NCBI RefSeq assembly: GCF_020567705.1
Contig: NZ_JAJDJU010000003.1
Location: forward strand, 124,001 to 188,000
DNA: 64,000 bases
Source of the DNA: Acidocella sp. KAb 2-4
Lineage (GTDB): Bacteria; Pseudomonadota; Alphaproteobacteria; Acetobacterales; Acetobacteraceae
Direction of reading: 5' to 3'
Shown here: positions 47,057 to 62,710 of the stretch, piece after piece
Position numbering within the stretch: the stretch's first letter is position 1
Layout of the letters: each line of letters starts with the position of its first letter
Position numbers and translations under genes: made by a program
The notes under the pieces: generated by a model
Database searches by the model: none
What the model saw: only the letters and a program-made list of their open reading frames with translations
Told to the model about the DNA's origin: nothing

Positions 47057-47842
47057 ATGGCAAAGAAATTCGTTTGGGGCCGGGCCTGGCATGGCCGCAG
47101 CTATGATCTGGGGCGGATGACGCTGCCCGAACTCTGGGTGGCGTATCTCACCTATCCCGCCATCAATCTTTACGTGGCACTGGCGCTGCTTGCTGGCGCT
47201 TATGCGGTGCTGGAGGCCCGGCGCGGGCTGGAGATCGCGATGCCGGCGCTCGCGGTACTGATCGTCTATCCGCTGGTCTGGTATGGGCTGCACCGCTATG
47301 TGCTGCATGGGCGCTGGCTCTACCGCATGCGCTGGAGCGCGGGGCTGTGGAAGCGCATCCATTTCGACCATCACCAGGACCCGCATAAGCTGGAAGTGCT
47401 GTTTGGCGATCCGCTCAACACCATCCCGACCATGGCGCTCATCACCGGCCCAATCGGCTACGCCCTGGCGGGCTGGACCGGCGCGGCGGCGGCCTTCGCC
47501 ACGGCGCTCATCACCACCTGCGTATATGAATTCTTTCACTGCATCCAGCACCTCAACTACAAGCCGAAAAACGCCTTCGTGCAGCGGCTCAAGCGCGACC
47601 ATCTGCTGCACCATTTCCACAGCGAGACGGTGAATTACGGCATCGTCAGCTTTTTGCCCGACAAGATGCTTGGCACGTATCACCCGAACGCCAAGGACTG
47701 CCCGAAAAGCCCGACCGTGTTCAACCTGGGCTATGACCTCGATGAGGCGGCACGTTTCCCCTGGGTGATGGAACTGACCGGCGCCCCGCCGCGCGACAAG
47801 CCCCCCGGCGCCATGACGGAGCAGAGGGGGCGCGCGGCCTGA
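47057..47842 (+). CDS. Fatty-acid/sphingolipid hydroxylase (sterol desaturase superfamily, FA2H-like)
   Basis: 261 aa membrane di-iron enzyme with two hydrophobic hairpins. The histidine clusters are all present: His79/His84 (HRYVLH), His102/105/106/110 (HFDHHQDPH), His161/165 (HCIQH), His182/185/186/188 (HLLHHFH) and His209. The segment HHFHSETVNYGIVS recalls HHFAHQKSGFGIS of FA2H/Scs7, which hydroxylate C2 of ceramide N-acyl chains. Sphingoid C4-hydroxylases are the other possibility. The ceramide-synthase candidate follows with TGATG overlap, which supports action on ceramide. The ATG at 47057 begins the conserved part; earlier codons of the frame are not protein-like. Confidence 0.82.
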   Translation: MAKKFVWGRAWHGRSYDLGRMTLPELWVAYLTYPAINLYVALALLAGAYAVLEARRGLEIAMPALAVLIVYPLVWYGLHRYVLHGRWLYRMRWSAGLWKRIHFDHHQDPHKLEVLFGDPLNTIPTMALITGPIGYALAGWTGAAAAFATALITTCVYEFFHCIQHLNYKPKNAFVQRLKRDHLLHHFHSETVNYGIVSFLPDKMLGTYHPNAKDCPKSPTVFNLGYDLDEAARFPWVMELTGAPPRDKPPGAMTEQRGRAA

Positions 47843-48972
47843 TGAGCAAGATCGAGATCATCCCGGTTTCCGGCAAGAAAGAACTGAAGCGCTTCATCCT
47901 GCTACCCGAGCGGCTGCACTGCGGCGACCCGGCCTATATCGCGCCGCTGCATATGGAGCGCGAGGAGGCGCTGGGGCCGAAGAACCCGTTTTTCGGCCAT
48001 GCCGAGGCGCAGTTTTGGCTGGCGGTGCGCGATGGGCGCGATGTTGGGCGCATCAGCGCGCAGATCGACAAGCTGGCGCTTTCGCTCAGGCCCGACGCGC
48101 CGGGCATGTTCGGCATGTTGGCGGCCGAGGATGATCCCGAGATTTTCACGGCATTGCTCGACACCGCGCGCGCCTGGCTGCGCGAACGCGGCATGACGCG
48201 CATGCAGGGGCCGTTCAACCTCAATATCAACGAGGAAACCGGCGCCCTGGTGGATGGCTTCGACACGCCGCCAATGCTGCTGATGCCGCATGACCGGCCC
48301 TATGTCGGCGCGCGGCTCGAAGGGCTGGGGCTGGTCAAGGCCAAGGATGTCTTCGCTTATCTGTACGACACGCGGGTGGAGCTGCCCGCCAGCGTGCGCC
48401 GCCTGCTCTCTCGCCCGTTGCCGCCGGGGGTCACGGTGCGCCCGCTCGACCTCAAGCGGATCAAGGAGGAAATCCGCAACGTCACCGCCATCTTCAACGA
48501 TGCATGGGCGAATAATTGGGGCTTTGTCCCGCTTACCGAGGCGGAGACCGATTACCTCGCCAAATCGCTGAAGCCGCTGCTCAACCCGCGCATGACCAGC
48601 CTGGTCGAGCGCGATGGCGAGCCGGTGGCGTTCATGATCGCGCTGCCGAATCTAAACGAGGCGATCAAGGGGCTGGACGGCAAGCTGCTGCCCTTCGGCT
48701 GGGCCAAGCTGCTCTGGCGGCTGAAGGTGGCGGGGGTGAAGACCGCGCGCGTGCCGCTGATGGGCGTGCGCCGCGCCGCCGCCAAGGACATGATCGGCAG
48801 CCTGCTGCCCTATCTGATGATCGACATGGTCCGCCGCGAGGGGCTGCAGATGGGCTTTACCCATATCGAGCTGTCCTGGATCCTCGAGGACAACATGCCG
48901 ATGCGCCGGATGATCGAGAGCCTCGACGCCAAGGCGTACAAAACCTACCGGGTGTACGAGACGGCGGTCTGA
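47842..48972 (+). CDS. GNAT-fold acyltransferase, candidate bacterial ceramide synthase
   Basis: 376 aa, cytosolic, of the large GNAT-like family (N-acyl rather than N-acetyl transferase) to which the ceramide synthase of Caulobacter belongs. That enzyme acylates 3-ketosphinganine or sphinganine. Two GNAT-like lobes are suggested: residues about 1-165 (KKELKRFILLPERLHCGDPA; GMTRMQGPFNLNINEETGAL) and about 170-376 (NDAWANNWGFVPLTEAE; SWILEDNMPMRRMIESL). The family is usually annotated hypothetical. The identification rests on memory of the family plus its setting: coupled to an FA2H-like hydroxylase and 1 nt from the convergent ceramide-reductase candidate. No alternative substrate is indicated. 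Confidence 0.75.
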   Translation: MSKIEIIPVSGKKELKRFILLPERLHCGDPAYIAPLHMEREEALGPKNPFFGHAEAQFWLAVRDGRDVGRISAQIDKLALSLRPDAPGMFGMLAAEDDPEIFTALLDTARAWLRERGMTRMQGPFNLNINEETGALVDGFDTPPMLLMPHDRPYVGARLEGLGLVKAKDVFAYLYDTRVELPASVRRLLSRPLPPGVTVRPLDLKRIKEEIRNVTAIFNDAWANNWGFVPLTEAETDYLAKSLKPLLNPRMTSLVERDGEPVAFMIALPNLNEAIKGLDGKLLPFGWAKLLWRLKVAGVKTARVPLMGVRRAAAKDMIGSLLPYLMIDMVRREGLQMGFTHIELSWILEDNMPMRRMIESLDAKAYKTYRVYETAV

Positions 48973-48973
48973 G

Positions 48974-49921
48974 CTAGCGCAGCCAGCCCGCCGCCCGGTA
49001 CCACGCGGCGGTGTGCGCAAACCCCTCGGCCAGCCCGAAGCGCGGCGTGTAAATCTCGCGCGGCAGCAGCTCATCGGGCCGCACCGACCAGTCCGGGTGC
49101 AAAATCTCCCGCGCCTTGCCGCGTGTGAAGATCGGTGGCGTGGCGCGTGTCCTGCCCCATAATTCGGATGCGAGCCCGGCCGCCATCACCAGCCCGGCGG
49201 GCAGGCGCAGAAAGCGCGGTTTTCCGCCCGTGGCGCGGGCGGCTTCCTCCAGCAGGGCGCGCAGGGTGTAGCCCTCCGGGTGTTCATCCGCGAGGCTGAA
49301 CAGGCCGGGGCGAAATTTTTCGCCTGCCAGGGCGGCGATGGCGCCCGCCGCGTCCTGCGCGTGGATCACGGCGGCCTTGCCGTTGCCCAGCAGCGGCGCC
49401 ACCGGGCGCAGGCTGGCCTTGAACAGTGCCAGGGTTTCCTTGTCCCATGGCCCATAGATGGCGGGTGGGCGGATGATCGCCAGCCGCGCGGCTTGGAGGC
49501 CCTGCCGCGCCTCCGCCTCCGCCGCCTGCTTGCTGAAGGCGTAGCCGGAGAGTTCCGGTTCCCGCGCCGCTAGCGAGGAGATCAGGATGAATTTCGCCTC
49601 TGGCGCAATCTGTGTCGCCATCCGCGCCATGGCCGCCGTGCCGTCGCGGTTGGCGCGTAGGAAGGCGGCGTGGTGATGCGCCTTGATCACCCCCGCCGCG
49701 TGGATCACCACATCCGCGCCGCGCACCAGCTCGGCCAGGGCGGCTTCATCCTCCAGGCTGCCGCGCAATGTCGCGAAGGTGAGGCCCGTGAACGCGGGAT
49801 GCGCAGGGGCGCGCCGCGCCAGCAGGCGCAGGCGGAACCCGGCTTGCGCCAGGGCGGTAACGAGATGAACCCCCAGAAACCCCGTGCCGCCCGTGACGGC
49901 GGCGAGCGGTGCTTGGCTCAT
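48974..49921 (-). CDS. Extended SDR, candidate ceramide reductase (CerR-like)
   Basis: 315 aa. The Rossmann motif TGGTGFLG (residues 10-17), Ser115 and Tyr127-x3-Lys131 (YAFSK) give the SDR catalytic set. An atypical-to-extended epimerase/dehydratase fold follows with a long C-terminal lobe. In Caulobacter an SDR of this type reduces the 3-keto group of N-acyl-3-ketosphinganine to dihydroceramide. The role here is inferred from adjacency: it overlaps the stop of the fatty-acyl-AMP ligase upstream by 4 nt (ATGA) and converges on the ceramide-synthase candidate. A sugar epimerase role is the main alternative. Confidence 0.75.
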   Translation of the reverse strand: MSQAPLAAVTGGTGFLGVHLVTALAQAGFRLRLLARRAPAHPAFTGLTFATLRGSLEDEAALAELVRGADVVIHAAGVIKAHHHAAFLRANRDGTAAMARMATQIAPEAKFILISSLAAREPELSGYAFSKQAAEAEARQGLQAARLAIIRPPAIYGPWDKETLALFKASLRPVAPLLGNGKAAVIHAQDAAGAIAALAGEKFRPGLFSLADEHPEGYTLRALLEEAARATGGKPRFLRLPAGLVMAAGLASELWGRTRATPPIFTRGKAREILHPDWSVRPDELLPREIYTPRFGLAEGFAHTAAWYRAAGWLR

Positions 49922-51657
49922 TCCGCCGCGGTGGCGGCAGCGCGGGGCTCGAAGGCGCCCTCCAGATACATCAGCCGGGCGCGCGAGCGGCTGAGCTTGC
50001 CCGAGGAGGTTTGCGGCAGGCTATGCGGCGGCACCAGCACCACGCGCGTCTCCAGACCCTGGCGGCCACGGAAGAAATTGGTGAGTTCCATGGCCAGTGC
50101 CTCGCGCGCGGCGGGGGCGGTGAGGCGGCATTCGACGAGCACGACGACCTCCTCCTCCTCGCCGGTATCGACGGAAAACACCGCGACATCGCCGCTGCGC
50201 AGCGACGGGATTTCCGCCTCGGCGGCCCATTCCAGGTCCTGCGGCCAGACATTGCGGCCATGGACGATGATAAGGTCTTTCGCCCGCCCGGTGATCACGA
50301 TCTGCCCGTTGGTGAGGTAGCCGAGATCCCCGGTATCCAGCCAGCCATCCTGGGAGAGCACGCGCGCGGTCTCCTCCGGGGCGCCGAAATAGCCGAGCAT
50401 CAGGCTGGGCCCGCGCACGAAGATGCGGCCAACCGCGCGCTCAGGCAGCAACGCGCCATCATCGCCGCGCACCTCGATTTCGTGCGCCGGCAGCATTCGC
50501 CCGCAGACCACGAAATGGCGCACGCGCTCGCTGTGCTCATCGGCGGGCACGGCGATGTGCTCGTGTTCCAGCGCCAGCCCGTCCACCGCGTCTTCCTTCG
50601 CGCCCTGGCCGTCCGGGCTGAAGCTGAGGGCGAGGGTTGCCTCCGCCATGCCGTAGCAGGGGATGAAGGCGGCGGCGTTGAAGCCGTTTTCGGCAAACCG
50701 CGCGGCGAAGCGGGTGAGCACGGCGGGGCGGATCATGTCTCCGCCAATGCCTGCCCGGCGCCAGGAGGCGAGGTCGATGCCCTCGGTCGAGGCGGTTTTC
50801 GCACGGCGGGTGCAAAGCTCGTAGCCGAAGGACGGGCTGAACGAGATGCTGCCCTTGTTGCGCGTGATGAGCGAGAGCCAGAGCAGCGGGCGGCGCGCGA
50901 ATTCGCGCGTCGGCAGGATATCGACCGAGAGCTGGCACGCCATCGGCATCAGCAGGAAGCCGACCAGCCCCATATCGTGATAATAAGGCAGCCAGGTGGT
51001 GCAGCGGTCGTCATCATTCACCTGCAGCCCGTATTTGGCCATGTAATGGGCGTTGGCCATGAAGGCCGGTTGTGTGACCGCCACGCCCAGCGGAAACCGC
51101 GTGCTGCCGGAGGAAAATTGCAGATAAGCCAGCGACTCAGGCGCGGGCAGATCGGCCTCGGGCACCATCGGCGCGGCATCAAGCGCCGCGATGGTGCCGG
51201 AGCAGCGCAGGTCCAGCCCGTCCACCGCCTCGGCCAGCCATTCGGCCAGCACCGCGGGGCCGAACACGGCATGCGCGTCGGCCGCCTGGATCATCCGGCG
51301 CAGGAAGGAGATATACCCCGCCTTGCCGCCAAAGGCCGCGGGCAGGGGCAGCGGCGCGGGCACCAGCCCGGCATATTGGCAGGCGAAGAAGGCGCGGGCG
51401 AAATCACCGTCGCTCTCGGCCAGCAGGCCGACGCGCTGGCCAGGCTTCAGCCCCGCGCCGAGCAGGCGGCGCGCCAGGGTTTTGGCCTGGGTGCGCAGCG
51501 TGGCGTAGGGCAATGCCTCGGTCAGCACCCCCTTGCCGGAGTAGAAATTAAGCCCGGTTGGGCCTTGGGCGGCATAGTCCAGGGCCTCGGCGATGGTGCC
51601 GAAATCGGCGAGACGCTTCACCAGCCCCGCGTGACGAGTCGGGGTCGGCTCAGTCAT
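49918..51657 (-). CDS. Fatty acyl-AMP ligase / acyl-ACP synthetase
   Basis: 579 aa, ANL superfamily, FAAL branch (FadD32-like). The adenylate-forming P-loop is LQFSSGSTRFPLGV (residues about 179-192), PCYGMAEATLAL is motif A5, and GWLDTGDLGYL and the C-terminal PQTSSGKLSRSR with its catalytic Lys are present. FAALs activate fatty acids as acyl-AMP and load them on ACP. The probable partner is the ACP at 58096, whose acyl group Spt would use; in Caulobacter such an acyl-ACP synthetase (AasR) is one of five ceramide genes. It leads a two-gene operon with the SDR and is divergent from the GT32 gene. Confidence 0.88.
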   Translation of the reverse strand: MTEPTPTRHAGLVKRLADFGTIAEALDYAAQGPTGLNFYSGKGVLTEALPYATLRTQAKTLARRLLGAGLKPGQRVGLLAESDGDFARAFFACQYAGLVPAPLPLPAAFGGKAGYISFLRRMIQAADAHAVFGPAVLAEWLAEAVDGLDLRCSGTIAALDAAPMVPEADLPAPESLAYLQFSSGSTRFPLGVAVTQPAFMANAHYMAKYGLQVNDDDRCTTWLPYYHDMGLVGFLLMPMACQLSVDILPTREFARRPLLWLSLITRNKGSISFSPSFGYELCTRRAKTASTEGIDLASWRRAGIGGDMIRPAVLTRFAARFAENGFNAAAFIPCYGMAEATLALSFSPDGQGAKEDAVDGLALEHEHIAVPADEHSERVRHFVVCGRMLPAHEIEVRGDDGALLPERAVGRIFVRGPSLMLGYFGAPEETARVLSQDGWLDTGDLGYLTNGQIVITGRAKDLIIVHGRNVWPQDLEWAAEAEIPSLRSGDVAVFSVDTGEEEEVVVLVECRLTAPAAREALAMELTNFFRGRQGLETRVVLVPPHSLPQTSSGKLSRSRARLMYLEGAFEPRAAATAAE

Positions 51658-51740
51658 ATTGCCTGGAAGTTACAATGGCAGCCATCCGCCGCCGCTAACA
51701 GAGTCGCGGTGGAATGGCAATGGCTTGCCCGCATGGGTGC

Positions 51741-51770
51741 TTGACAGTGCCGCGCGCCGCCGCCTAGCAG
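51741..51770 (+). promoter_or_regulatory. Possible promoter of the GT32 gene
   Basis: A perfect -35 TTGACA (51741-51746) is followed after 18 nt by TAGCAG, a poor -10, 31 nt before the ATG at 51801. Confidence 0.3.
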
Positions 51771-51800
51771 CCGCGCAACGTAACATTTGGGCACCCTGTC

Positions 51801-52772
51801 ATGGCCATTCCGAAGCGCGTGCATTTCTGCTGGATTGGTCAGCATTTTCCCTGGGCATATGTGTTCGCCGTGCTCTCCGCCGCCCGCCATGCCGGAGTGG
51901 ATGAGGTGATCCTGCACCATACGGACGAGCTGGCGGACGGGCCGGAAACGCAAGCCTTGCGCGCCGCGCCCGGCGTGCGGCTGGCGCGGCTGGACCCCGC
52001 GGCGCTGCTTGGGCCGGTGGGGGCTGAGTTGGGGCTGGGCGAGGCGTTGAGCGGGTTGTATGGGCGTGCGCAAAGTCCGGCTCAAAAAGCCGATATTTTG
52101 CGGGCCGCGATTCTCCACCAGCAAGGCGGCATTTATCTGGATGTCGATACTCTCACCGTTGCCCCCCTGATGCCTTTATTGGTGGCGCGGCAGTTCATGG
52201 GCGCAGAGCGGATCGTGTGGCCGCACTGGGTCTATCATTCCCGCTCGCCGCTGGTCTGGGGGCGGCATTTGGGGCTCGACGTGCTGCGCAAGCTATTGCG
52301 TCTGACTCCCGGCGGATGGCGTGCATTCCGTAAAGTGGAGGGCTGGTATGTACCGGCCGTGAATAATGCGGTGATGGGCGCAGAGGCCGGCGCCCCTCTG
52401 ATCGTCGCCGCTCTACGCGAGATGGCTGCATTGCCTGAGCAGCAAGCGCATGGGGCCTATGCTTTGGGGCCGGATCTTTATCAGGCGTTGCTGGCCGCCT
52501 CGCCAATGCCGGACCTCGCCATCCATGCGCCGCCCTGTTTCTACCCCTTCGCCCCGGAAATCTCGGAGCACTGGTTCCGCTCCTGCCGCAATGCCGCCGC
52601 CGCCCTGCGCCAGGCGCTGCGGCCCGAGACGCGGATCGTGCATTGGTATGGCTCGGTCCGCACCAAGCCTTATGTGGCGCAGATCAGCCCTGATTATGTG
52701 CGCGCCCACCGGCAAACCCAGCTTTACAGCGCGCTGGTCTGCGAGCTGCTGCCGGACCTCGCCAGCGTGTAA
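51801..52772 (+). CDS. Glycosyltransferase family 32 (DXD sugar transferase)
   Basis: 323 aa. IPKRVHFCWIGQ at the N-terminus and KADILRAAILHQQGGIYLDV, with the metal-binding Asp114-Val-Asp116, are the Gly_transf_sug/GT32 signature. The family includes bacterial capsule enzymes, alpha-1,4-galactosyl transferases, and yeast Sur1/Csh1, which mannosylate inositol-phosphoceramide. No signal or membrane segment. It stands alone between the FAAL operon and the inositol operon, 178 nt before the inositol phosphate synthase. Transfer of hexose to an inositol-containing sphingolipid is an inference from position. Confidence 0.85.
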   Translation: MAIPKRVHFCWIGQHFPWAYVFAVLSAARHAGVDEVILHHTDELADGPETQALRAAPGVRLARLDPAALLGPVGAELGLGEALSGLYGRAQSPAQKADILRAAILHQQGGIYLDVDTLTVAPLMPLLVARQFMGAERIVWPHWVYHSRSPLVWGRHLGLDVLRKLLRLTPGGWRAFRKVEGWYVPAVNNAVMGAEAGAPLIVAALREMAALPEQQAHGAYALGPDLYQALLAASPMPDLAIHAPPCFYPFAPEISEHWFRSCRNAAAALRQALRPETRIVHWYGSVRTKPYVAQISPDYVRAHRQTQLYSALVCELLPDLASV

Positions 52773-52950: not shown

Positions 52951-54084
52951 ATGGCGAAGAACGGCGGCATCCGCATTGCGATCGCAGGGATCGGCAATTG
53001 CGCCAGCTCCCTGATTCAGGGGCTCTATTATTACACGCCGGAGCGTTGCGCCGATGGCGTGGTCGGCCTCATGCACACCGAGATCGGCGGTTATCAGCCG
53101 AACCACATCCGGGTGGTGGCGGCGTTTGACGTGGATGCCCGCAAGGTCGGCCAGGACGTGAACCGCGCCATCTTCGCCAAGCCGAACTGCACCAAGGTGT
53201 TCCAGGCCGACATCCCCGATTGCGGCGTGACCGTGCAGATGGGCCAGGTGCTGGACGGCATCTCCGAGCATATGGCGAATTACGACGAGGACCGCACCTT
53301 CGTCCGCGCCGACGCCCGCGAGCTGAGCAAGGCCGAGATCGTCGCCCTGCTGAAGGACAGCAAGGCCGATGTGCTGCTGAATTACATGCCGGTCGGCTCC
53401 GAGCAGGCGGCGCGCTTCTATGCCGAATGCGCGCTGGAGGCCGGGTGCGGCTTCATCAACAACATGCCGGTGTTCATCGCCAGCGATAAGGCGTTCGCCG
53501 ACCGCTTCGCCGCGGCCGGGCTGCCGATCATCGGCGATGACATCAAATCCCAACTTGGCGCCACCATCACCCACCGCGTGCTGACCGATATTTTCGCCAA
53601 GCGCGGCGTGAAACTGCTGCGCACCTACCAGCTCAACACCGGCGGCAATACCGACTTCCTGAACATGAAGAACCAGGACCGTCTGGCCTCCAAGAAGAAG
53701 TCGAAGACCGAGGCGGTGCAGTCGGTGGCCAAGACGCGGATGGAGAACGAGAATATCCATATCGGCCCGTCCGATTACGTGCCCTGGCAGAACGACAACA
53801 AGATCTGCTTCATCCGCATGGAAGGGCTGCTGTTCGGCGACGTGCCGATGGATCTGGAACTGCGCCTCTCGGTGCAGGACAGCCCGAACTCCGCTGGCGT
53901 GGTGATCGACATGATCCGCTGCTGCAAGCTGGCGCTGGAGAACGGCATTGGCGGCGTGCTGGCCGGGCCGAGCGCGTATTTCTGCAAGCATCCGCCGGTG
54001 CAATACACCGACGACGTGGCCTATGAGATGACGGAGGCGTTCATCCGCACCCGTCCGGCGCTGGCGGTGACCGCCGCCGAATGA
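52951..54084 (+). CDS. ino1: myo-Inositol-3-phosphate synthase
   Basis: 377 aa, the shorter actinobacterial/archaeal-type INO1. It converts glucose-6-phosphate to 1L-myo-inositol-1(3)-phosphate with bound NAD+. Seen: IAIAGIGNCASSLIQGL Rossmann start, LLNYMPVGSEQAARFYAECA, GDDIKSQLGATITHR and LNTGGNTDFLNM, all family-defining. The ATG at 52951 follows GAGG; a TTG two codons earlier is less likely. The nucleotidyltransferase start overlaps its stop by 4 nt. Bacteria seldom make inositol de novo, so this gene points to an inositol lipid or thiol. Confidence 0.95.
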   Translation: MAKNGGIRIAIAGIGNCASSLIQGLYYYTPERCADGVVGLMHTEIGGYQPNHIRVVAAFDVDARKVGQDVNRAIFAKPNCTKVFQADIPDCGVTVQMGQVLDGISEHMANYDEDRTFVRADARELSKAEIVALLKDSKADVLLNYMPVGSEQAARFYAECALEAGCGFINNMPVFIASDKAFADRFAAAGLPIIGDDIKSQLGATITHRVLTDIFAKRGVKLLRTYQLNTGGNTDFLNMKNQDRLASKKKSKTEAVQSVAKTRMENENIHIGPSDYVPWQNDNKICFIRMEGLLFGDVPMDLELRLSVQDSPNSAGVVIDMIRCCKLALENGIGGVLAGPSAYFCKHPPVQYTDDVAYEMTEAFIRTRPALAVTAAE

Positions 54085-54797: not shown

Positions 54798-54799
54798 CC

Positions 54800-55684
54800 A
54801 TGAGCGACGCCGCCGGGCTGGCCGGGGCCGACCCGGTGCGGCGCACCTATGAGATCGAGGACCCGACCAACCTCTATTTCATCCATCCGATTTCGGCGCG
54901 GCTGGTGCCGGTTTTCGCCAAGCTCGGGGTTACGCCCAATGCCGTATCGCTGATCGGCATGGGCTGCGGCATTCTGGCCGGGCTCGCCTACCGGTTTTAT
55001 GGGCAGACATGGAGCGCGGGCCTCGGCTTTCTGCTGATGCTCGCCTGGCATGTGATGGATGGCGCCGATGGCCAACTCGCGCGGCTGACCAAGAGTTACT
55101 CCGAACTCGGCAAGGTGCTGGACGGTATCTGCGACTACGTGACCTTCACCGCGGTTTATGCCGGGCTGGCGGTGGCGATGAGCGCCACGCTGGGCGGCTG
55201 GGCCTGGGTGCTGGTGGCGGTGTCGGGCGTGGCGCATGCGGTGCAGTCGGCGGCGTATGAGATGCAGCGGCAGGATTACAATTTCTGGGGCTGGGGGCGG
55301 CAATCCGCCGCCTTGCCCAAATTGGACGCCATGCCCCAGGGAGTCGCCGGGCATCTGCATCACCTCTATGCGCGGGTGCAGCTTTGGGCCGCTGGCGGGG
55401 CGGCGGAATTCCACGCGGCGTTCAGCGCCGTGCTGGCGGCTCAGCCGGCGCGCGAGGCCGGGTTGCGCGCCGCCTACCGCGAAGCTTTCGCGCCGCTGGT
55501 GCGCCGCTGGGGCGTGCTCTGCGCCAATTACCGTACGCTCGGGATCTGCATCGCGGCGCTATTGAAGCTGCCGGCGTTGTATTTCCTGTTCGAAATCTTC
55601 GGCTTCAGCGCCCTTCTGCTCCTGTTGCTCAAGGCGCAGCGGGCGCAATACCGCGCCTTTTTGGCGCGCGTGCGCGTCAGTTAA
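54800..55684 (+). CDS. CDP-alcohol phosphotransferase (candidate inositol-phosphoceramide or inositol-phospholipid synthase)
   Basis: 294 aa, integral membrane enzyme. The active site is complete: Asp87, Asp90-Gly91, Ala94-Arg95, Gly104, Asp108, Asp112, exactly D-x2-DG-x2-AR-x8-G-x3-D-x3-D. The N-terminal 40 residues (DPTNLYFIHPISARLVPVFA) match the soluble lead-in of IPCT-linked DIPPS-like enzymes. With CDP-inositol from the previous gene it would pass phosphoinositol to an alcohol. Ceramide is the attractive acceptor in this locus; another inositol phosphate, glycerol or diacylglycerol are alternatives. The start is the ATG at 54800. The last 8 nt overlap the convergent lptG-like gene. Confidence 0.88.
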   Translation: MSDAAGLAGADPVRRTYEIEDPTNLYFIHPISARLVPVFAKLGVTPNAVSLIGMGCGILAGLAYRFYGQTWSAGLGFLLMLAWHVMDGADGQLARLTKSYSELGKVLDGICDYVTFTAVYAGLAVAMSATLGGWAWVLVAVSGVAHAVQSAAYEMQRQDYNFWGWGRQSAALPKLDAMPQGVAGHLHHLYARVQLWAAGGAAEFHAAFSAVLAAQPAREAGLRAAYREAFAPLVRRWGVLCANYRTLGICIAALLKLPALYFLFEIFGFSALLLLLLKAQRAQYRAFLARVRVS

Positions 55685-56744
55685 GTTCGCGCGTCAGCCG
55701 CCAGCCGCCCAGCGCCAAGAGCAGCAAAGACGGCGCCAGTGCCGACACCGCCGGGTTCAGCGCCAGCAGCAGCCCCGCATAGCCGGTGATCTCCTGTGCC
55801 AGGAGAAACACCATGCCGAGCAGCGCACCGATCACGAGCTGCCGCCCCGCCCCGCCCGCGCGCTGCGGCCCAAACACGAAAGGCCCCGCGATCAGCGCCA
55901 TGCCGATCAGCGATAGCGGAACCGCCACCATGCTCCAGAAGGCTTGCTCATAGAGCAGCGCCGCCTGATGCAGGTGTTTCAACTGCCGCACATAGGCGTA
56001 GAGGGCGAGCGGCGGCATGGTTTGGGGCGGGATCGCCAGGAGCTGCAACTGCTTGCTGGAGAGAAAAGGCTGCCAGATCAGGCTGGCTGGTTTGTCGGCC
56101 ACCGGCTGGCCGTTGGTGATGGTATCGCGGGTGATGCCGCTGAGCGCCCATGTGCCGTCGGGTTGCGGGGCGGCGGTGTCGGCCTCGATCAGGCTTTGCA
56201 GCCCGCCATCCGGCCCGAAGGTGAAGATCGCCACGCCGCGCAGGTCGGCCCCGCCCGCGAAGCTCTGCACGTTGAGGAACACGCCGTTTTTCTGGGCCCA
56301 GAAGCCGCCATTGGAGAGGCCGGAGAGCGCGTCGCCCAGCGCCGCCGCCTGTTGGCGCTGGGCCGCCTGCTGCGCGGGCGGAATGATGAATTGCGCGATT
56401 ATGAACAGGGCCAGGATGATGGGCAGGCATAGGCGCACCACGGCGCCGATGAGGCGCGCCTGCGACACGCCGAAGCTGCGGAAGGCGGTGAGTTCGGAGT
56501 GTCTGGCAAGCCCGCCCAGCCCCAGCAGCGTGGCCAGCAGCATGGAGACGGGCGCGATTGGCAGCAGCCGGGCCGGCGCGGTGAGCAGGGTGTAGAGCAG
56601 CGCGTCGCGCAGCGTGTAGCGCCCCTGACCGATGAGCCCCAGCTGCTCGACGAAGCTGAGCAGGCTGAACAGCGCCGTCAGGCCGGTGGTGATGAGCAGG
56701 AAGGCGCGGCCTACCGTCCAGCCGATATAGCGGTCAAGCAGCAT
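55677..56744 (-). CDS. LptG-like permease (YjgP/YjgQ family)
   Basis: 355 aa. LLDRYIGWTVGRAFLLITTG at the N-terminus, GLARHSELTAFRSFGVSQ as the coupling helix, a periplasmic beta-jellyroll (about 135-250) and three C-terminal helices reproduce LptG. LptF/LptG with LptB2 extract LPS from the inner membrane. The start is the ATG at 56744, which overlaps the lptF-like gene by 11 nt. No lptD, lptA or lptC gene is near. Its location between the inositol headgroup and spt operons suggests extraction of the sphingolipid instead of LPS. Confidence 0.85.
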   Translation of the reverse strand: MLLDRYIGWTVGRAFLLITTGLTALFSLLSFVEQLGLIGQGRYTLRDALLYTLLTAPARLLPIAPVSMLLATLLGLGGLARHSELTAFRSFGVSQARLIGAVVRLCLPIILALFIIAQFIIPPAQQAAQRQQAAALGDALSGLSNGGFWAQKNGVFLNVQSFAGGADLRGVAIFTFGPDGGLQSLIEADTAAPQPDGTWALSGITRDTITNGQPVADKPASLIWQPFLSSKQLQLLAIPPQTMPPLALYAYVRQLKHLHQAALLYEQAFWSMVAVPLSLIGMALIAGPFVFGPQRAGGAGRQLVIGALLGMVFLLAQEITGYAGLLLALNPAVSALAPSLLLLALGGWRLTRELN

Positions 56745-57870
56745 CGCGGCTCCCGGCGGGCTGGGCAAGGCGGGGGCGGGGCGGGTTGGCAGGCGGGGCG
56801 AGCCAGCGCCGGCGCAGCGCCGGACCATACCAGAGCAGCGCGACAATCAGCGCCAGCAGGGCGGGCGCCCACCATAGCCCGGGGAACCGCCCGACCGCGC
56901 CGTGCTGCACCCAGGTTCGTGCCGTGGTGCTGAGCAGGTAATAGGCCGAATAGGCAAAAATGGCGGGGCCGAATTTCGCGTGGCGGTTTTGGCGCGGGCG
57001 GCCGCGGCTGAGCAGGGCGCCCAGCAGCGCCAGCAGCAGGGTGGAAATGCCGGTGGAGAACCGCCATTGCCGTTCGGCGACATCGGCGGGCAGGTCGGAG
57101 GCGATGAGATGCGCGGTGCTTGCCGCCACCGGGCTATAGCCGGGCGCGGCGGGAACGGTGCCATCGGGGGTCACGTTCAATGCCGCGGCTTCCAGAGACT
57201 GGTCGTTGCCCGGGTTGTCGCGGTCGAATTCATAAACATGCACGCCGGTGAGATGCACCTTGCGCTGCCCGCTGGCATCGGGGGCTGCGGGGGCGGCGTT
57301 GTCGGCGAAGATCACCTCGATATGCCCGCCGCTGCGCCGCGCCACGAACACGCCCCGCGCCTGGCTGTGCGGCCCGGCGCGCTGGCTGAGAAAGATGACG
57401 CGCGAGCCATCGGCGCTGGCATAGAAGGTGCCCGCCTCCATCGCGTTCACGTTGAGCATGATGGCCGCGCGGCGGGAGATGTCGTGCGAGGTGGCATAGG
57501 CCCAGGGGCGGGCGAATACCGAGAGGCAAGCCACCCCGAGCGCCAGCCCCAAGGCCAGCGCCAGCACCGGGCGCACGAGCCTGGGCGGCCCGATGCCCAG
57601 CGCCAGCATGGCGGTGATCTCGCCATCGGCCTGCAACCGCCCAAACCCCGCCACCACGGCGATGAACAGCGAGATCGGGATCAGCACATCGAGTGCGATC
57701 AGGAGTTTCAGCCCGGTGAGAGCGGCAATGACATGTATTGGCAGCAAGCCGTTCACGGCGTCAGACAGGATTCCCGCTAAGCCATAGCCGCCAAACAACG
57801 TGGCCAGGATGGCCAAGATCACGATGAAGGGCCGCGCGATCTCACGAAGCAGATATCTGTCTATATTCAA
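56734..57870 (-). CDS. LptF-like permease (YjgP/YjgQ family)
   Basis: About 378 aa from a TTG at 57870 (NIDRYLLREIARPFIVILAI), the point where LptF homologs begin. No ATG is available; TTG and GTG codons further upstream (57921, 57915) are possible and none has a clear Shine-Dalgarno sequence. GEITAMLALGIGPPRLVRPV is the coupling helix, a periplasmic jellyroll runs from about 140 to 265, and three helices end the protein with a basic tail. It pairs with the LptG-like protein and should need an LptB-type ATPase encoded elsewhere. It is divergent from the ACP gene. Confidence 0.83.
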   Translation of the reverse strand: MNIDRYLLREIARPFIVILAILATLFGGYGLAGILSDAVNGLLPIHVIAALTGLKLLIALDVLIPISLFIAVVAGFGRLQADGEITAMLALGIGPPRLVRPVLALALGLALGVACLSVFARPWAYATSHDISRRAAIMLNVNAMEAGTFYASADGSRVIFLSQRAGPHSQARGVFVARRSGGHIEVIFADNAAPAAPDASGQRKVHLTGVHVYEFDRDNPGNDQSLEAAALNVTPDGTVPAAPGYSPVAASTAHLIASDLPADVAERQWRFSTGISTLLLALLGALLSRGRPRQNRHAKFGPAIFAYSAYYLLSTTARTWVQHGAVGRFPGLWWAPALLALIVALLWYGPALRRRWLAPPANPPRPRLAQPAGSRDAA

Positions 57871-57998
57871 GACGCCAAACCAATTCTCTCCGGCCTGTCT
57901 GAGATGGCCGGCCACCCCCAAGGCGCCAAGGAGCTCAGCCGCCCATTAGGCCCGTGACAACGCGGTGCCCGCTCTTTAATAGAGAGGCAGATGAATTG

Positions 57999-58004: not shown

Positions 58005-58095
58005 TTTTCTTGCATGACTGTCATCAGCGCCCGCCACCGGGCGGCTTTCGCCAAATGGGCATGCAGGAACCAGCAAAGGAGCTGCGCGGGGCCAC

Positions 58096-58347
58096 ATGTC
58101 TGACCAGGCCAATGAAATCCGGGAGACCATCTTCAGCACGCTGCGCGCGGCCCTGCCTCAGGACCGTCCGCTCTCCGACTCCACCCATATCATCGAGGAT
58201 CTGGGGCTCGACTCCGTCGCGGTGATGGATTTCGTGATGGAGATCGAGGACAAGCTGGACATCACCGTACCGCTGGACAAGATCGCCGAGGTGGTCACGC
58301 TGGGGGATCTGATCGCCACCGTGCAGCGCCTCAAGCAAGCCGCGTAA
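58096..58347 (+). CDS. Acyl carrier protein dedicated to sphingolipid synthesis (AcpR-like)
   Basis: 83 aa. The phosphopantetheine site is Ser40 in EDLGLDSVAVMDF, with the usual four-helix pattern. Val after DS, where housekeeping ACPs have Leu (DSL), is seen in specialised ACPs. The spt gene starts 4 nt after its stop. Together with the fatty-acyl-AMP ligase at 49918 it should deliver palmitoyl-ACP-like donors to Spt, as reported for Caulobacter. Confidence 0.9.
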   Translation: MSDQANEIRETIFSTLRAALPQDRPLSDSTHIIEDLGLDSVAVMDFVMEIEDKLDITVPLDKIAEVVTLGDLIATVQRLKQAA

Positions 58348-58351
58348 CCTC

Positions 58352-59572
58352 ATGGCGCTGCTTGATAAATACGCGCCGGTGGCGGAGCAGTACCGCCAGC
58401 TGGAACTGGCTGGCGCGAATCCGTTCAACGTGACTTTCGATGAGGTGCTCTCACCCACCGAGGCGCTGATCGCCGGGCGCAAGACGCTGCTGCTCGGCAC
58501 AAATAATTATCTGGGGCTGACCTATGACCCGGCGGTGGTGGAGGCGGCCGTGGCGGCCACGCGCGCCGCGGGCACCGGCACCACAGGCTCGCGCATCGCC
58601 AATGGCAGCTATGGCGGGCATAAGCGGCTGGAGGCGGCGCTGGCCGAATTCTACGGCCGGCGGCATGGCCTCGTCTTCTCCACCGGCTATCAAGCCAATC
58701 TCGGCATCATCTCGGCGCTGGCGGGTAAGGGCGATCATCTGCTGCTCGATGCCGATTCCCACGCCTCCATCTATGATGGTTCGCGCCTCGGCTATGCGCA
58801 GGTCACGCGCTTTCGGCATAACAGCCCCGATGATCTCGCCAACCGGTTGCGCCGCCTCGCGGACGAGCCGGGCGACAAGGTGATCATCGTCGAGGGCATT
58901 TATTCGATGCTGGGCGACACCGCCCCCTTGCGCGAATTCGCCGCGGTGAAGCGCGAATACGGTGCTTATCTGGTGGTGGACGAGGCGCATTCGCTCGGCG
59001 TTCTGGGCGAGACCGGGCGCGGGCTGGCGGAGCGGGAGGGGGTGGAAGCGGATGTCGATTTCATCGTCGGCACCTTCTCGAAGAGCCTGGGCGGGGTCGG
59101 CGGCTTCTGCGTCACCGACATGGAGGGCGCGGATATCCTGCGCGTCGTCAGCCGCCCGTATATGTTCACCGCCTCGCTGCCGCCCGGCGTGATCGCCGCC
59201 ACCGAGGCCGCCCTGCACGAGCTGCGCGCCCAGCCCGAATTGCAGGCGCGGCTGAACGCCAACGCGCTGCGGCTGTATCGCGGGCTGGAGGCTTTGGGCT
59301 TCGCGCTGGGGCCGGAGCCGAGCCCGGTGGTCTCCGCCATCATGCCCTCGCCGGAGGCCGCGTTCGGCTTCTGGGCGGCGCTGCTGGAGGCCGGGCTATA
59401 CACCAATGTCAGCCTGCCGCCCGCCACGCCGAAAGGGCTGGCGCTGCTGCGCTCCAGCGTCAGCGCCGCGCATACCCCGGCGCAGATCGACCGCGCCGTG
59501 GCTTTGTTCGCCGAGGTCGGGCAGGCGCTCGGGCTGCTGGCGGGGGCGCCGGGCTTGGCGGCGGCGCGGTAG
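58352..59572 (+). CDS. spt: Serine palmitoyltransferase (alpha-oxoamine synthase family)
   Basis: 406 aa PLP enzyme. The Schiff-base Lys244 is in GTFSKSLGGVGGF; Asp210 and His213 (VVDEAHSLG) and the stacking His138 (DADSHAS) are present. Alpha-oxoamine synthases include Spt, AONS (BioF), KBL and ALAS. Context (ACP, FAAL, ceramide-synthase and reductase candidates) selects Spt, which condenses serine with an acyl thioester to 3-ketosphinganine. No biotin genes are near. It is the second gene of acp-spt-GT4-PIG-L. Confidence 0.88.
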   Translation: MALLDKYAPVAEQYRQLELAGANPFNVTFDEVLSPTEALIAGRKTLLLGTNNYLGLTYDPAVVEAAVAATRAAGTGTTGSRIANGSYGGHKRLEAALAEFYGRRHGLVFSTGYQANLGIISALAGKGDHLLLDADSHASIYDGSRLGYAQVTRFRHNSPDDLANRLRRLADEPGDKVIIVEGIYSMLGDTAPLREFAAVKREYGAYLVVDEAHSLGVLGETGRGLAEREGVEADVDFIVGTFSKSLGGVGGFCVTDMEGADILRVVSRPYMFTASLPPGVIAATEAALHELRAQPELQARLNANALRLYRGLEALGFALGPEPSPVVSAIMPSPEAAFGFWAALLEAGLYTNVSLPPATPKGLALLRSSVSAAHTPAQIDRAVALFAEVGQALGLLAGAPGLAAAR

Positions 59573-59598
59573 CCACGCCCCAGGCCGAAGGAGGGCGG

Positions 59599-60735
59599 AT
59601 GCGCAGGGTCGGGATCTTCCGCCATAATCTCTTCAAGCTGTCGGAACCGTTTATCGCCCAGCAGGCGCAGCGCCTTAGCCGCTACCAGCCGCTTTATCTC
59701 GGCCGGCTGCGCTATGGCGCCGCCCCGGCCGGGGCGGAGGTGCTGGCGCTGGAGGACCGGACGCCCCGCGCCCGGCTGCTGCCCGCCGCATGGCACATGC
59801 TCTCCGCTGATCCGCGCCCCTATCTAACCCTGTTGGCGGGGCGCGAACCGGCCCTGATCCACGCCCATTTTGGCGTTGAGGGCGTGTATGCCCTGAAGCT
59901 GGCCGCCAGGCTCGACGTGCCACTGCTCACTACCTTTCATGGGTTCGACGCCACGCTCTCCACCCCCGGCCTGCTCGCCAACCCGGCCTGGGCGCGTTAC
60001 GCGCTGGGGCGCGGGGCATTGGCGCGGCGGGGAGCGCTGTTCCTCGCCGCCTCGGGCTTTCTGCGCGGGCGGCTGCTGGCGCTGGGGTTTCCGCCTGAGC
60101 GCGTGCGCGTGCATTATATCGGCGTGGATACCGGCGCCATCACCCCGCGCGATTTGGCGGAGGAGGAACCGGTCATCCTGCATGTGGCGCGGCTGGAGGA
60201 GGTGAAGGGCACGGCGTTTTTGATCCGCGCCTTCGCCCGGATCGCCGCGCAATTCCCCGCCGTTCGGCTGGTGATCATCGGTGACGGCAAGCTGCGCCCC
60301 GCGCTGGAGCGGCTGGCGCGGGAGGCCGGCATCGCGCCGCGCGTCGCGTTTCTGGGGGCGCGGGCGCATGGCGAGGTGTTGGCCTGGATGCGCCGCGCCG
60401 CCGTGCTGGCGCTGCCTAGCGTGCGGACGGATTCGGGGCGCGAGGAGGGGCTGGGCATGGTGATGCTGGAAGCCGCCGCGACCGGCGTGCCGGGTGTGGG
60501 CTCGCGCGTCGGCGGCATCCCGGAAGGCATCGCGGAGGGCGAGACCGGGCTGCTGGCACCTGAACGCGACCCGGAGGCGCTGGCCGCCGCCCTCGCCACG
60601 CTGCTCGCCGATCCGGTGCTGCGCCAGCGCATGGGCGCGGCGGCGCGGGCGCGGGCGGCAGCGTGTTTCGACATCCGCCTCCAGACCGCGGCGCTGGAGG
60701 ATCTCTACGACGAAATCCTGGAGGGCGGGGCATGA
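59599..60735 (+). CDS. Glycosyltransferase family 4 in the spt operon
   Basis: 378 aa GT-B enzyme. HAHFGVEGVYALKLAARLDV in the acceptor half, then ILHVARLEEVKG and REEGLGMVMLEAAATGVP with the E-x7-E motif for the nucleotide-sugar ribose/phosphate. GAAGGAGGG precedes the ATG, 26 nt after spt. A PIG-L-type deacetylase overlaps its end, the same pairing as MshA/MshB in mycothiol and PIG-A/PIG-L in GPI synthesis. Transfer of GlcNAc to an inositol-containing acceptor is therefore a reasonable inference. Colanic-acid-type transferases look similar. Confidence 0.85.
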   Translation: MRRVGIFRHNLFKLSEPFIAQQAQRLSRYQPLYLGRLRYGAAPAGAEVLALEDRTPRARLLPAAWHMLSADPRPYLTLLAGREPALIHAHFGVEGVYALKLAARLDVPLLTTFHGFDATLSTPGLLANPAWARYALGRGALARRGALFLAASGFLRGRLLALGFPPERVRVHYIGVDTGAITPRDLAEEEPVILHVARLEEVKGTAFLIRAFARIAAQFPAVRLVIIGDGKLRPALERLAREAGIAPRVAFLGARAHGEVLAWMRRAAVLALPSVRTDSGREEGLGMVMLEAAATGVPGVGSRVGGIPEGIAEGETGLLAPERDPEALAAALATLLADPVLRQRMGAAARARAAACFDIRLQTAALEDLYDEILEGGA

Positions 60736-61481
60736 GCCGCGCCGTGCTCGTCGCCGCGCACCCGGATGATGAAATCCTCTGGCTGAGTTCGGCGCTCGCC
60801 GGGGCCGATCTGGTGGTGCTGTGCTTCGGCGCGGCGCTGGGCAAGCCCAGGATGGCGGCGGCGCGGGCGCGGGCGGTGGCGGCGCTGGGGCTGAAGGCGT
60901 TGGCGTATCTGGCGCTGCCGGAGAGCGGCACGCGCAAGCTGGTGGATTGGCGAAACCCCGCGCTCACGCCGACGGGCATTGCGATTTCCAGCGCCGAAGG
61001 GCAGACGCGGTATGACGCGAATTTCGTCGCCCTGGTGGCGCGGCTGCGGCCGCTTCTGGCCGGGGCGGATGAGGTTTACACCCATAATCCCTGGGGCGAA
61101 TACGGCCATCCCGAGCATATCCAGGTCTATCGCGCCGTCGCCGCCCTGCAGGGGGAGCTTGGGTTCAGGCTGTGGTTCTCCAACTATGCCGCGCCGCTCA
61201 CCTGGCCATTGGCGCAAACCCTGGGCGCCGCGCCACTCTGGGCGGAGAAGCGCGCCGTGGCGCCGGATCTGCCGCTGGCCCGGCGGCTACGCGGGGTTTA
61301 CCTGCGCCATGGGGTCTGGACTTGGCCGCGCCTGCATCGCTGGCCGACCGCAGAGACGCTCTACGCCCAGCCGCCCGGCCCGCGCGAGGGCTGGCGCACG
61401 CTGCGCGGCGAGACGCTGCTGGATGCCACGGCGCTGCGCTGGTGGAAGCCCGCCCGCGCCGCGCGGCGGGTGCTTGGTTAA
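60732..61481 (+). CDS. PIG-L/LmbE-family zinc deacetylase
   Basis: 249 aa. The zinc site AAHPDDE (His10, Asp13) and His129 in YGHPEHIQV are intact. The family (MshB, PIG-L, BshB) removes acetyl from GlcNAc bound to inositol, phosphatidylinositol or malate. It overlaps the GT4 gene by 4 nt (ATGA) and closes the acp-spt operon. With inositol phosphate synthase encoded 6 kb away, deacetylation of a GlcNAc-inositol-phospholipid to the GlcN form is the best guess. Free mycothiol-like thiols are not expected in proteobacteria. Confidence 0.85.
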   Translation: MSRAVLVAAHPDDEILWLSSALAGADLVVLCFGAALGKPRMAAARARAVAALGLKALAYLALPESGTRKLVDWRNPALTPTGIAISSAEGQTRYDANFVALVARLRPLLAGADEVYTHNPWGEYGHPEHIQVYRAVAALQGELGFRLWFSNYAAPLTWPLAQTLGAAPLWAEKRAVAPDLPLARRLRGVYLRHGVWTWPRLHRWPTAETLYAQPPGPREGWRTLRGETLLDATALRWWKPARAARRVLG

Positions 61482-62710
61482 CCCCCCGGCGGCAGGATGA
61501 TCGAGCGCGTGCGCGCGAAATGCGCGAACCAGCGCCGCGATTCGCGTTTCCAGATTCCGGCCTGAGCATCGCCCCAATGGCCGGGCTTGGGCGTCGCCTC
61601 ATCCGCCCGCCAGGCCTGGATGGTGGCGAGGATTTTCTCCGCCCTGGCGCTCCAGGTGTAGTTCTTGTTGTCCTCGCGCGCGCCCGCGGCCAGCCGCGCC
61701 GCCAGGGCGTCATCCTCGGTCAGCGCCTTCAGCCCGGCCACCAGCGCGTCCAGCGAATCTGGTGGGCAGAGCAAGGCGGTTTCGCCGCTTTTCAGCACCT
61801 CCGCCACATCCGGCGTGTTGCCTGCCAGAATGGGGCGACCGGAGCCGAGATAGAAGAACAGCTTCAGCGGCAGCACGGTGGAGCCGAACTTGGCCAGAGG
61901 CTGCAACGAGGGTGGGATCAGCAGCACATCGGCGGCGTAGATATAGCGCCCGAGCGTCGCCTCGCTTTGCCAGGGCACGATGATGATATTCGGCACGGCG
62001 CGGGCCAGGGCCTCGACCGGCCCCTCGCCATAGGAGCCGACGAACAGGAAGGTGAGCTGCGGCAGGCGCTTCGCCGCCTCGATCACCAGCTCCAGCCCCT
62101 TCTTGTGGTTTACGCGGCCGGTGTAGACCACGGTTTTCGCGTCCTCCGGCACCCCGATCAGCCGCTTCGCTTCGTCCAGCGGAATTGGCGCCGCGAAGCG
62201 CCGCGGCTCGAAGCCGTTATGCACACAGCGCAGCTTCGCCGCCGGCACGCCCAGCTCGATATATTTGCGGCGCGTGTACTCCGAGTGGCAGATGCTGCCG
62301 AGAAAGCGCGGGTGGCAGAACAGCTTGTAGAGCCAGCGTTGCAGCGGCGGAATCTGGTCCGGCCAGGGGCGGTAATGGTCGAACACCACGCGCTGGCCGC
62401 AGAGGATGGACATCCACGCGACCCAGAGATTGCGCGTGTAAACGAGATCGGCCTGCCGGAACGCCCGGCGCAGCCCGATCGTCAGCCCGCTCATGAAGTG
62501 CCGCAGCGCGGCGGGGCGCAGCGGGGCGAAGGCGCGCAAAATGGGCATGCCCGCCAGCGCCGTAGCGGTGCCCAAATTTTCCCGCGCCACCGGCACATGC
62601 AGCCAGCTTGTCTCCAAATGCGCGCCCAGGTAGCGGGCCGTGGTGATGAACACTTCCGCATCCGCCTCGGCATTGGGCAGGACATTCTCGAAGGCGAAGA
62701 GGATTTTCAT
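61478..62710 (-). CDS. Glycosyltransferase family 4 (second)
   Basis: 410 aa. MKILFAFENVLPNAEADAEV starts the GT-B fold. VVYTGRVNHKKGLELVIEAA and the segment PLKLFFYLGSGRPILAGNTP, with the conserved Lys/Glu-equivalent region, mark GT4, close to GumH/Alg2-like proteins. The ATG at 62710 is chosen; the frame upstream is not conserved. It converges on the deacetylase gene with a 4-nt overlap and is not in its operon. It may add a further sugar to the lipid headgroup, or act in another glycan. Confidence 0.83.
   Translation of the reverse strand: MKILFAFENVLPNAEADAEVFITTARYLGAHLETSWLHVPVARENLGTATALAGMPILRAFAPLRPAALRHFMSGLTIGLRRAFRQADLVYTRNLWVAWMSILCGQRVVFDHYRPWPDQIPPLQRWLYKLFCHPRFLGSICHSEYTRRKYIELGVPAAKLRCVHNGFEPRRFAAPIPLDEAKRLIGVPEDAKTVVYTGRVNHKKGLELVIEAAKRLPQLTFLFVGSYGEGPVEALARAVPNIIIVPWQSEATLGRYIYAADVLLIPPSLQPLAKFGSTVLPLKLFFYLGSGRPILAGNTPDVAEVLKSGETALLCPPDSLDALVAGLKALTEDDALAARLAAGAREDNKNYTWSARAEKILATIQAWRADEATPKPGHWGDAQAGIWKRESRRWFAHFARTRSIILPPGG

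Follow-up and report, generated by a model that had tools for sequence, protein, structure and literature searches.

Does Acidocella sp. KAb 2-4 hold, in one locus, the genes needed to build, glycosylate and export an inositol sphingolipid? The question is raised by a window of 64,000 nucleotides (assembly GCF_020567705.1, contig NZ_JAJDJU010000003.1, positions 124,001 to 188,000), taken from a genome of 3.1 Mb in 71 contigs that is called G000 below. Within this window, a block of 15.7 kb and about 15 genes (47057-62710; all coordinates are those of the window) combines a ceramide core around serine palmitoyltransferase (Spt), an inositol head-group operon, glycosyltransferases (GTs), a PIG-L deacetylase and an LptFG-like pair of permeases. 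Fungi and plants are the typical makers of inositol sphingolipids. In bacteria, inositol lipids have been described as relatively rare (PMC9246714). An initial annotation had read the block as one pathway, naming Spt, an acyl carrier protein (ACP), an acyl-ACP synthetase, a short-chain dehydrogenase/reductase (SDR), an FA2H-like hydroxylase, the inositol operon, the GTs, PIG-L and the LptFG-like pair. Scans with Pfam and NCBIfam recovered each of these families. We report here that the block is inherited as a unit within this genus of acid-loving bacteria and that it was most likely exchanged in one piece. It probably directs the synthesis of a 2-hydroxy inositol-phosphoceramide by way of CDP-inositol, with a GlcN-type decoration by GT4 and PIG-L and export by the second LptFG pair (LptFG2).

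Co-inheritance of the head-group genes with spt

Strong orthologues of the CDP-alcohol phosphotransferase (CDPPT), Spt and myo-inositol-phosphate synthase (MIPS) were found in 20, 20 and 21 of 38 same-genus genomes, respectively. Among the 23 genomes of good quality (completeness of 90% or more, contamination of 5% or less), the three occur together in 13 and none of them has a strong orthologue in the other 10; weak relatives of the CDP-alcohol phosphotransferase are present in nearly every genome. LptFG genes number four in all 13 block-bearing and two in all 10 block-free good genomes. Discordances between Spt, CDPPT and MIPS concerned only G001, G018 and G025, all below 90% completeness, and were rejected as real: the spt gene of G018 runs off the end of its contig, the contig of G001 starts in LptF and that of G025 is 4.6 kb long. 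On an FtsK tree of the 23 genomes and two outgroups, presence and absence require 3 changes (2 to 3 in bootstrap trees, 8.7 with shuffled labels). The gene order of the block is repeated in most of the same-genus loci fetched, being rearranged or split in G007, G020 and G028, and in part in other genera; the block is thus more than a chance arrangement. Its presence and absence inside one genus provides ready comparison strains.

Outside the genus, no strong CDPPT orthologue was found in any of the 22 other genera of the family in a first sample. Named genomes were then scanned with a CDPPT alignment, and the best 80 of 128 relatives, many of them on short contigs, were kept as loci. They belong to Acidocella, Gluconacetobacter, Nitrospirillum, Azospirillum, Acidisoma, Lichenicoccus, Acidomonas, Acetobacter peroxydans, Nguyenibacter, Elstera and the Emcibacteraceae/Kordiimonadaceae, together with metagenome-assembled genomes (MAGs), some of them bearing a Gammaproteobacteria label, one a Rhodothermia label and one a Geothrix label. 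The inositol-1-phosphate cytidylyltransferase (IPCT) was detected at 64 of these 80 loci, MIPS at 57, LptF and LptG at 47 each, Spt and the first GT4 at 31 each and PIG-L at 24. As for the 49 loci lacking a nearby spt, 13 were left out of the Spt test and 36 genomes were searched, 33 of which encode a clear Spt elsewhere, 2 a weak or partial one and 1 none. In total, Spt accompanies CDPPT in 66 of the 67 loci or genomes examined, in two of them weakly. As controls, 62 genomes without a strong CDPPT contained an Spt of at least 50% identity in 10 cases (14 at a looser cut-off), and 387 genomes of the class contained CDPPT in 4 and Spt in 56, all 4 CDPPT genomes being Spt-positive. CDPPT therefore goes with Spt and not the reverse, which is the behaviour of a head-group module. 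The initial annotation had named inositol genes occurring independently of spt as the pattern that would contradict it; the 13 and 10 genomes within the genus, the 66 of 67 and the 4 of 4 all show these genes keeping company with Spt. Judged from these matches, most of the block is shared by Acidocella and Nitrospirillum; the core of head-group genes is also present in Gluconacetobacter, Acidisoma, Lichenicoccus and others, frequently without linkage to spt.

Two loci deserve separate mention. The MAG labelled Geothrix carries a near-complete Acidocella-type block (L072) with no FA2H match and is perhaps misbinned or mislabelled. In another genus of the family (G058, locus L181, positions 2528-9726), a MIPS gene (51% identity) lies about 6 kb from a GNAT gene and spt, with a methyltransferase; this genome has no strong CDPPT orthologue and possibly represents another inositol-lipid arrangement.

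Probable exchange of the block between species

All 15 block genes of G000 that were compared are nearer to those of A. aminolytica (G024) than to those of A. aromatica (G034). The respective identities are 88 and 78% for Spt, 78 and 62% for CDPPT, 75 and 50% for LptG2, and 66 and 59% for PIG-L. The margin is small for MIPS (89 and 87%), where two other members of the A. aminolytica group tie with G034, and the FA2H comparison was made over a partial sequence. Genes outside the block show the opposite relationship: identities to A. aminolytica and A. aromatica are 62 and 66% for the upstream Wzx flippase, 76 and 92% for the C26 peptidase of the left flank, and 78 and 87% for FtsK. The LptFG pair linked to LptD (LptFG1) likewise groups G000 with A. 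aromatica, unlike the block. On the right flank, the gene at 62811 (83 and 82%, with no match in 2 of 6 genomes) is uninformative on transfer.

Trees of the ceramide core, the head-group genes and LptFG2 place G000 with A. facilis/aminolytica with supports of 100/99-100. Approximately unbiased (AU) tests gave p-values of 4.6e-10, 9.1e-7 and 5.9e-4, respectively, against a grouping of G000 with A. aromatica. Conversely, the LptFG1 (98/97) and FtsK (95/95 or 93/96) trees unite G000 with A. aromatica, the alternative being rejected with p-values of 5.2e-6 and 4.1e-5. The clades were named after the identities had been seen, hence the AU p-values are indicative. From the conflict between the block genes on one side and FtsK, LptFG1 and the left flank on the other, we conclude that the block, with its GTs, PIG-L and LptFG2 included, was most likely exchanged as one piece at least once. 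The limits 47057 and 62710 coincide with genes of one evolutionary history; Wzx was considered as a further member of the exchanged unit and rejected on its identities. The treatment of the 15.7-kb region as a single unit in the initial annotation holds, the ceramide core, the head-group operon and LptFG2 being co-inherited.

The ceramide core

Spt (58352-59572, plus strand) matches NF047599 with an E-value of 1.1e-198 and 660 bits for a cut-off of 500. It is preceded by an AcpR-like ACP (58096-58347, plus strand; PF00550, 3.9e-11), and an AcpR homologue directly precedes spt in all 16 spt loci fetched from other lineages. An AasR-like fatty acyl-AMP ligase (FAAL) or acyl-ACP synthetase lies at 49918-51657 on the minus strand (NF006624, 848 bits for a cut-off of 600), beside a CerR-like SDR reductase (48974-49921, minus strand; PF01370, 4e-18) whose top NCBIfam model, HpnA, is far under its cut-off. 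The FA2H-like hydroxylase (47057-47842, plus strand; PF04116, 6.4e-19) is predicted to 2-hydroxylate the N-acyl chain; 7 of the 16 spt loci hold a homologue with 55-60% identity to it.

The gene at 47842-48972 (plus strand) is matched by no Pfam or NCBIfam family, nor by any PDB sequence. Its predicted structure (AlphaFold, pLDDT 91.3) is a tandem GNAT and its top Foldseek matches in the PDB are tandem GNATs (9e-15), MshD included. The GNAT fold given to this gene by the initial annotation is therefore seen in the model, and we regard the protein as a candidate ceramide synthase (bCerS/CerS) with a predicted N-acyltransferase activity. Homologues of 43-57% identity occur in 7 of the 16 spt loci.

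In Caulobacter crescentus, the published gene order is aasR (CC_1165), cerR, acpR, spt, followed at a distance by LptF2/LptG2 and then cerS (CC_1154) (PMC11324152). An Emcibacter locus (L187) has the order FAAL, SDR, ACP, Spt, LptF, LptG, GNAT. Its FAAL homologue occupies the position of aasR, its SDR homologue, between FAAL and ACP, that of cerR (CC_1164), and its GNAT homologue that of cerS. By families and by the order common with L187, counterparts of aasR, acpR, cerR and cerS are all present beside spt in the block. Because the families and the L187 gene order match the order published for C. crescentus, the ceramide core is of the Caulobacter type, an assignment made by family and gene order and not by comparison with C. 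crescentus sequences.

The inositol head-group genes and their acceptor

MIPS (Ino1; 52951-54084, plus strand) matches PF01658 (2.9e-36), the mycothiol model TIGR03450 being under its cut-off. Its best PDB match is the inositol-3-phosphate synthase 1gr0 (1e-114), followed by a cyclitol-phosphate synthase (4e-59). The next gene (54081-54797, plus strand) is predicted to encode a CTP:inositol-1-phosphate cytidylyltransferase: a profile search of the PDB returned 2xme, 4mnd and 4jd0 as the top three matches, all of them IPCTs, the last being so named in PMC12275187. The top NCBIfam match is a fusion of IPCT with di-myo-inositol phosphate (DIPP) synthase, under its cut-off. Alignments were built without partial sequences and retained 18 of 21 CDPPT (window included), 19 of 21 IPCT, 15 of 16 GNAT and 18 of 18 PIG-L sequences. 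R13, K21 and D106 of IPCT are invariant in all 19 sequences, and in our reading of the alignment they would correspond to the catalytic residues discussed for the T. maritima IMPCT and Caulobacter CpgD (PMC12275187). CpgD has the same R, K and D, so the substrate does not follow from these residues alone; the adjoining MIPS gene in the operon supports inositol phosphate.

CDPPT (54800-55684, plus strand) belongs to the CDP-alcohol phosphotransferase family (PF01066, 2.1e-13). It has the complete family motif, D-x2-DG-x2-AR-x8-G-x3-D-x3-D, and the motif columns are invariant or nearly so both in the 18 sequences and in a larger alignment of 77 (76 of the 80 loci plus the window). We predict that it acts as a CDP-inositol:ceramide phosphoinositol transferase. 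Its predicted fold (pLDDT 88.7) is nearest to AF2299, then to phosphatidylinositol-phosphate (PIP) synthases, 4mnd being matched as well, and its profile extends to CPT1/CEPT1, enzymes that act on diacylglycerol. These likenesses would suit an enzyme making phosphatidylinositol on diacylglycerol, with ceramides that carry another head group or sugars only and two sets of genes linked by co-inheritance alone. In Bacteroides, inositol lipids are built on both backbones, diacylglycerol included, and a route from CDP-inositol to diacylglycerol-based phosphatidylinositol has been proposed for it (PMC9246714). Such a general glycerolipid enzyme, however, would not be expected to belong to a subfamily almost confined to Spt genomes, as found above, and we hold diacylglycerol as the sole acceptor to be quite improbable.

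Glycosyltransferases and deacetylase

The first GT4 (59599-60735, plus strand; PF00534, 6.6e-39) and PIG-L (60732-61481, plus strand; PF02585, 8.2e-9, above cut-off) directly follow spt. This GT4 is predicted to add an N-acetylhexosamine; it reaches the MshA model at 1.4e-31, far under the cut-off. All three PDB sequences matched by PIG-L are MshB/Rv1170. The zinc motifs of the PIG-L/MshB family are AHPDDE and HxxH; in 18 sequences, HPDDE is invariant and GHPEH nearly so. The first GT4 adjoins PIG-L at 23 of the 24 PIG-L loci, the exception starting at a contig end, and spt is present at 22 of the 24. Addition of GlcNAc followed by deacetylation on inositol would be the simplest reading, the sugar and its acceptor being predicted from the families and by analogy. 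The second GT4 (61478-62710, minus strand; PF00534, 6.1e-16) is also found near the head-group core in Gluconacetobacter loci. The block also encodes a DXD glycosyltransferase (Gly_transf_sug; 51801-52772, plus strand; PF04488, 9.3e-8), for which no counterpart was found at the locus of G014 or at those of Gluconacetobacter and Nitrospirillum.

The left neighbourhood suggests that the inositol-phosphoceramide might instead be unglycosylated, the GTs and PIG-L decorating lipopolysaccharide (LPS) or an O-antigen-like polysaccharide together with neighbouring genes. Just upstream of the block lie Wzx (a Wzx/MOP flippase, 44179-45720, minus strand; PF13440, 2.6e-52), a candidate accessory outside the exchanged piece, and an adjoining GT9 heptosyltransferase-like gene (45721-46752, minus strand). 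Wzx adjoins the second GT4 in many same-genus loci, and Gluconacetobacter loci have MIPS-IPCT-CDPPT-LptGF and the second GT4 with no PIG-L found. Yet both GT4 genes and PIG-L agree in their history with the genes for ceramide and head group, which Wzx does not, and the first GT4 and PIG-L stand directly after spt with the linkage counted above. We consider this explanation unlikely. An open reading frame at 46027-47052 (plus strand), antisense to the GT9 gene and of odd composition, was discarded as a block gene and is probably not coding. Elsewhere in the window, the region 17017-23807 encodes an MlaD-domain protein (minus strand) together with a double ABC ATPase and an ABC-2 permease (both plus strand), and may be a further envelope transport locus.

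Several matches recall soluble products, either di-myo-inositol phosphate made by IPCT and DIPP synthase, or a mycothiol-like GlcN-Ins made by Ino1, MshA, MshB and perhaps the GNAT acting as MshD. The best NCBIfam match of IPCT, the matches of MIPS, GT4 and PIG-L to mycothiol models, all under cut-off, and the appearance of MshD among the top structural matches of the GNAT model are in line with them. On the other hand, CDPPT scores 31 bits against a DIPP-synthase cut-off of 580, no MshC or MshD model was matched in the block, to which this search was confined, and the GNAT has no family match. The linkage to spt and LptFG2 leaves no obvious place for a cytosolic solute, and a soluble product is very improbable.

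A second LptFG pair

LptG2 (55677-56744, minus strand) and LptF2 (56734-57915, minus strand) score above the equivalog cut-offs of TIGR04408 and TIGR04407. On contig C12 of G000, a separate pair, LptFG1, adjoins LptD and SurA; LptG2 has 26% identity to this copy and LptF2 31% over part of it. The second pair rules out the block LptFG as the only or canonical LPS-export pair. An spt-linked LptF2/LptG2 has a precedent in Caulobacter (PMC11324152). Pfam scans gave no LptC2 counterpart among the block genes. In Gluconacetobacter, MIPS-IPCT-CDPPT-LptG-LptF are contiguous, spt lies elsewhere near another LptFG pair, and each of the 3 genomes counted has 6 LptFG genes. This two-locus pattern fits an exporter matched to the head group, without being proof of one. 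Acetobacter peroxydans (G111) has eight genes of the LptFG family, including two very divergent ones. In the Emcibacter MAGs G128 (L187) and G131, the only two LptFG genes found sit no more than about 5 kb from spt; conventional LPS export may be absent from these bacteria or may use the spt-linked pair.

Proposed pathway

In the pathway that we propose, AasR would charge AcpR, and Spt would condense the acyl-AcpR with serine. The tandem-GNAT CerS would then N-acylate the product, CerR would reduce it and FA2H would introduce the 2-hydroxyl. MIPS would supply inositol phosphate, converted by IPCT to CDP-inositol, from which CDPPT would transfer phosphoinositol to the 1-hydroxyl of ceramide; inositol-phosphoceramide would then be formed with no Aur1-type synthase involved. 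No AUR1-like family match was found by Pfam among the block genes, to which the search for such a gene was confined. The first GT4 would add an N-acetylhexosamine, PIG-L would remove its acetyl group and further GTs may extend the glycan. LptF2/LptG2 would lift the lipid out of the inner membrane towards the outer membrane. The joint product put forward by the initial annotation fares accordingly in part: its genes form a co-inherited unit, and phosphoinositol on ceramide rather than diacylglycerol, the sugars on inositol, the order of the steps and the cargo of LptFG2 are what we infer from them.

Several points weigh against this pathway. The lipid product is predicted here from its genes, and the GNAT fold is common to MshD and many other acyltransferases. 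The acceptor of CDPPT is not readable from its sequence, and diacylglycerol is possible. Caulobacter CerR is reported to be periplasmic (PMC11087976), so that a cytoplasmic head-group step on finished ceramide fits poorly unless the order differs. The 2 to 3 changes on the FtsK tree mean that the pattern within the genus amounts to few independent events and not 23. Among the 36 CDPPT genomes tested, Spt is weak or partial in G133 (Rhodothermia, 38%) and G125 (partial, 48%), and a fragmented MAG, G115, gave no Spt match. In Gluconacetobacter, spt is not linked to the inositol core and its locus has its own LptFG; the flanks of that core yielded no PIG-L over 10 kb. Both Emcibacter genomes counted with CDPPT have one LptFG pair only, near spt. 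Finally, the neighbouring GT9 and Wzx keep a surface-polysaccharide role possible for some of the GTs.

A bolder version, which we hold tentatively and at somewhat less than even odds, is that the block makes a bacterial counterpart of glycosylphosphatidylinositol (GPI) and glycosyl inositol-phosphoceramide (GIPC) lipids. The product would be a glucosaminyl-inositol-phosphoceramide formed by direct transfer of phosphoinositol from CDP-inositol to ceramide, by a new class of inositol-phosphoceramide synthase. GlcNAc would next be added and deacetylated by PIG-L, an LptFG pair matched to the head group would take the lipid to the outer membrane, and the entire cassette, export included, would be mobile between species. 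A direct CDP-inositol:ceramide route, if true, would be a further way to inositol sphingolipids through an enzyme family other than Aur1/IPCS, and a zwitterionic GlcN-Ins-P-ceramide would represent a striking convergence with GPI anchors. PMC11087976 and PMC11324152 call sphingolipid export to the outer membrane unknown; the pairing of LptFG2 with head-group genes makes it testable in cultivated genera (Acidocella, Gluconacetobacter).

Comparison with known systems

Among the matches listed from open PMC papers, there was no description of this gene combination in Alphaproteobacteria and nothing usable on Acidocella polar lipids. One of the nearest known systems is the ceramide/CPG2 region of C. 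crescentus (CC_1152-CC_1168), which likewise has aasR, cerR, acpR, spt, cerS and a second LptF/LptG (PMC11324152). Phosphoglycerate serves as the head group there, and a ceramide kinase (PMC11324152) and CpgD (PMC12275187) stand where the Acidocella block has MIPS-IPCT-CDPPT.

The alternate cluster of Bacteroides (MIPS/NTP-transferase/CDP-AP/HAD) has MIPS, a nucleotidyltransferase and a CDP-alcohol phosphotransferase in common with the block, and a CDP-inositol route was proposed for it in Bacteroidetes, unconfirmed, by Heaver et al. (PMC9246714). Compared with both Bacteroides clusters (the BT_1522/23/25 type and the alternate one), the block shows no AUR1-like or HAD family match in Pfam; unlike them, it is alphaproteobacterial, with inositol genes beside spt, cerS, LptFG2, GTs and PIG-L. 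The ceramides of PMC7565709 are assigned to Bacteroidetes. For Novosphingobium acidiphilum, in which neither known cluster has homologues, Heaver et al. describe a lipid that is PI-DHC-like (PMC9246714). Acetobacter malorum was also among the species whose lipids they extracted.

The archaeal/thermophile IPCT-DIPP synthase has the same cytidylyltransferase family and CDP-alcohol phosphotransferase fold as the block, whose two proteins are separate, ceramide-linked and under the fusion-model cut-off. In GPI biosynthesis (PIG-A/PIG-L), a GT4 adds GlcNAc to an inositol phospholipid, which is then de-N-acetylated. The fungal and plant enzymes, Aur1/IPCS, draw on phosphatidylinositol as their donor, and the CDP-alcohol phosphotransferase family is unrelated to them. 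The proposed GT4-then-deacetylase order of the block parallels that of GPI and of plant and fungal GIPC pathways, a likeness at the level of gene families. The resemblance to GIPC and mannosyl-inositol-phosphoceramide (MIPC) lipids drawn by the initial annotation is hence a fair analogy of product and not of chemistry, phosphoinositol being predicted here to come from CDP-inositol and not via Aur1/IPCS. We therefore view the block as a variant of known bacterial sphingolipid systems, whose parts have precedents and whose combination is new to the open literature covered.

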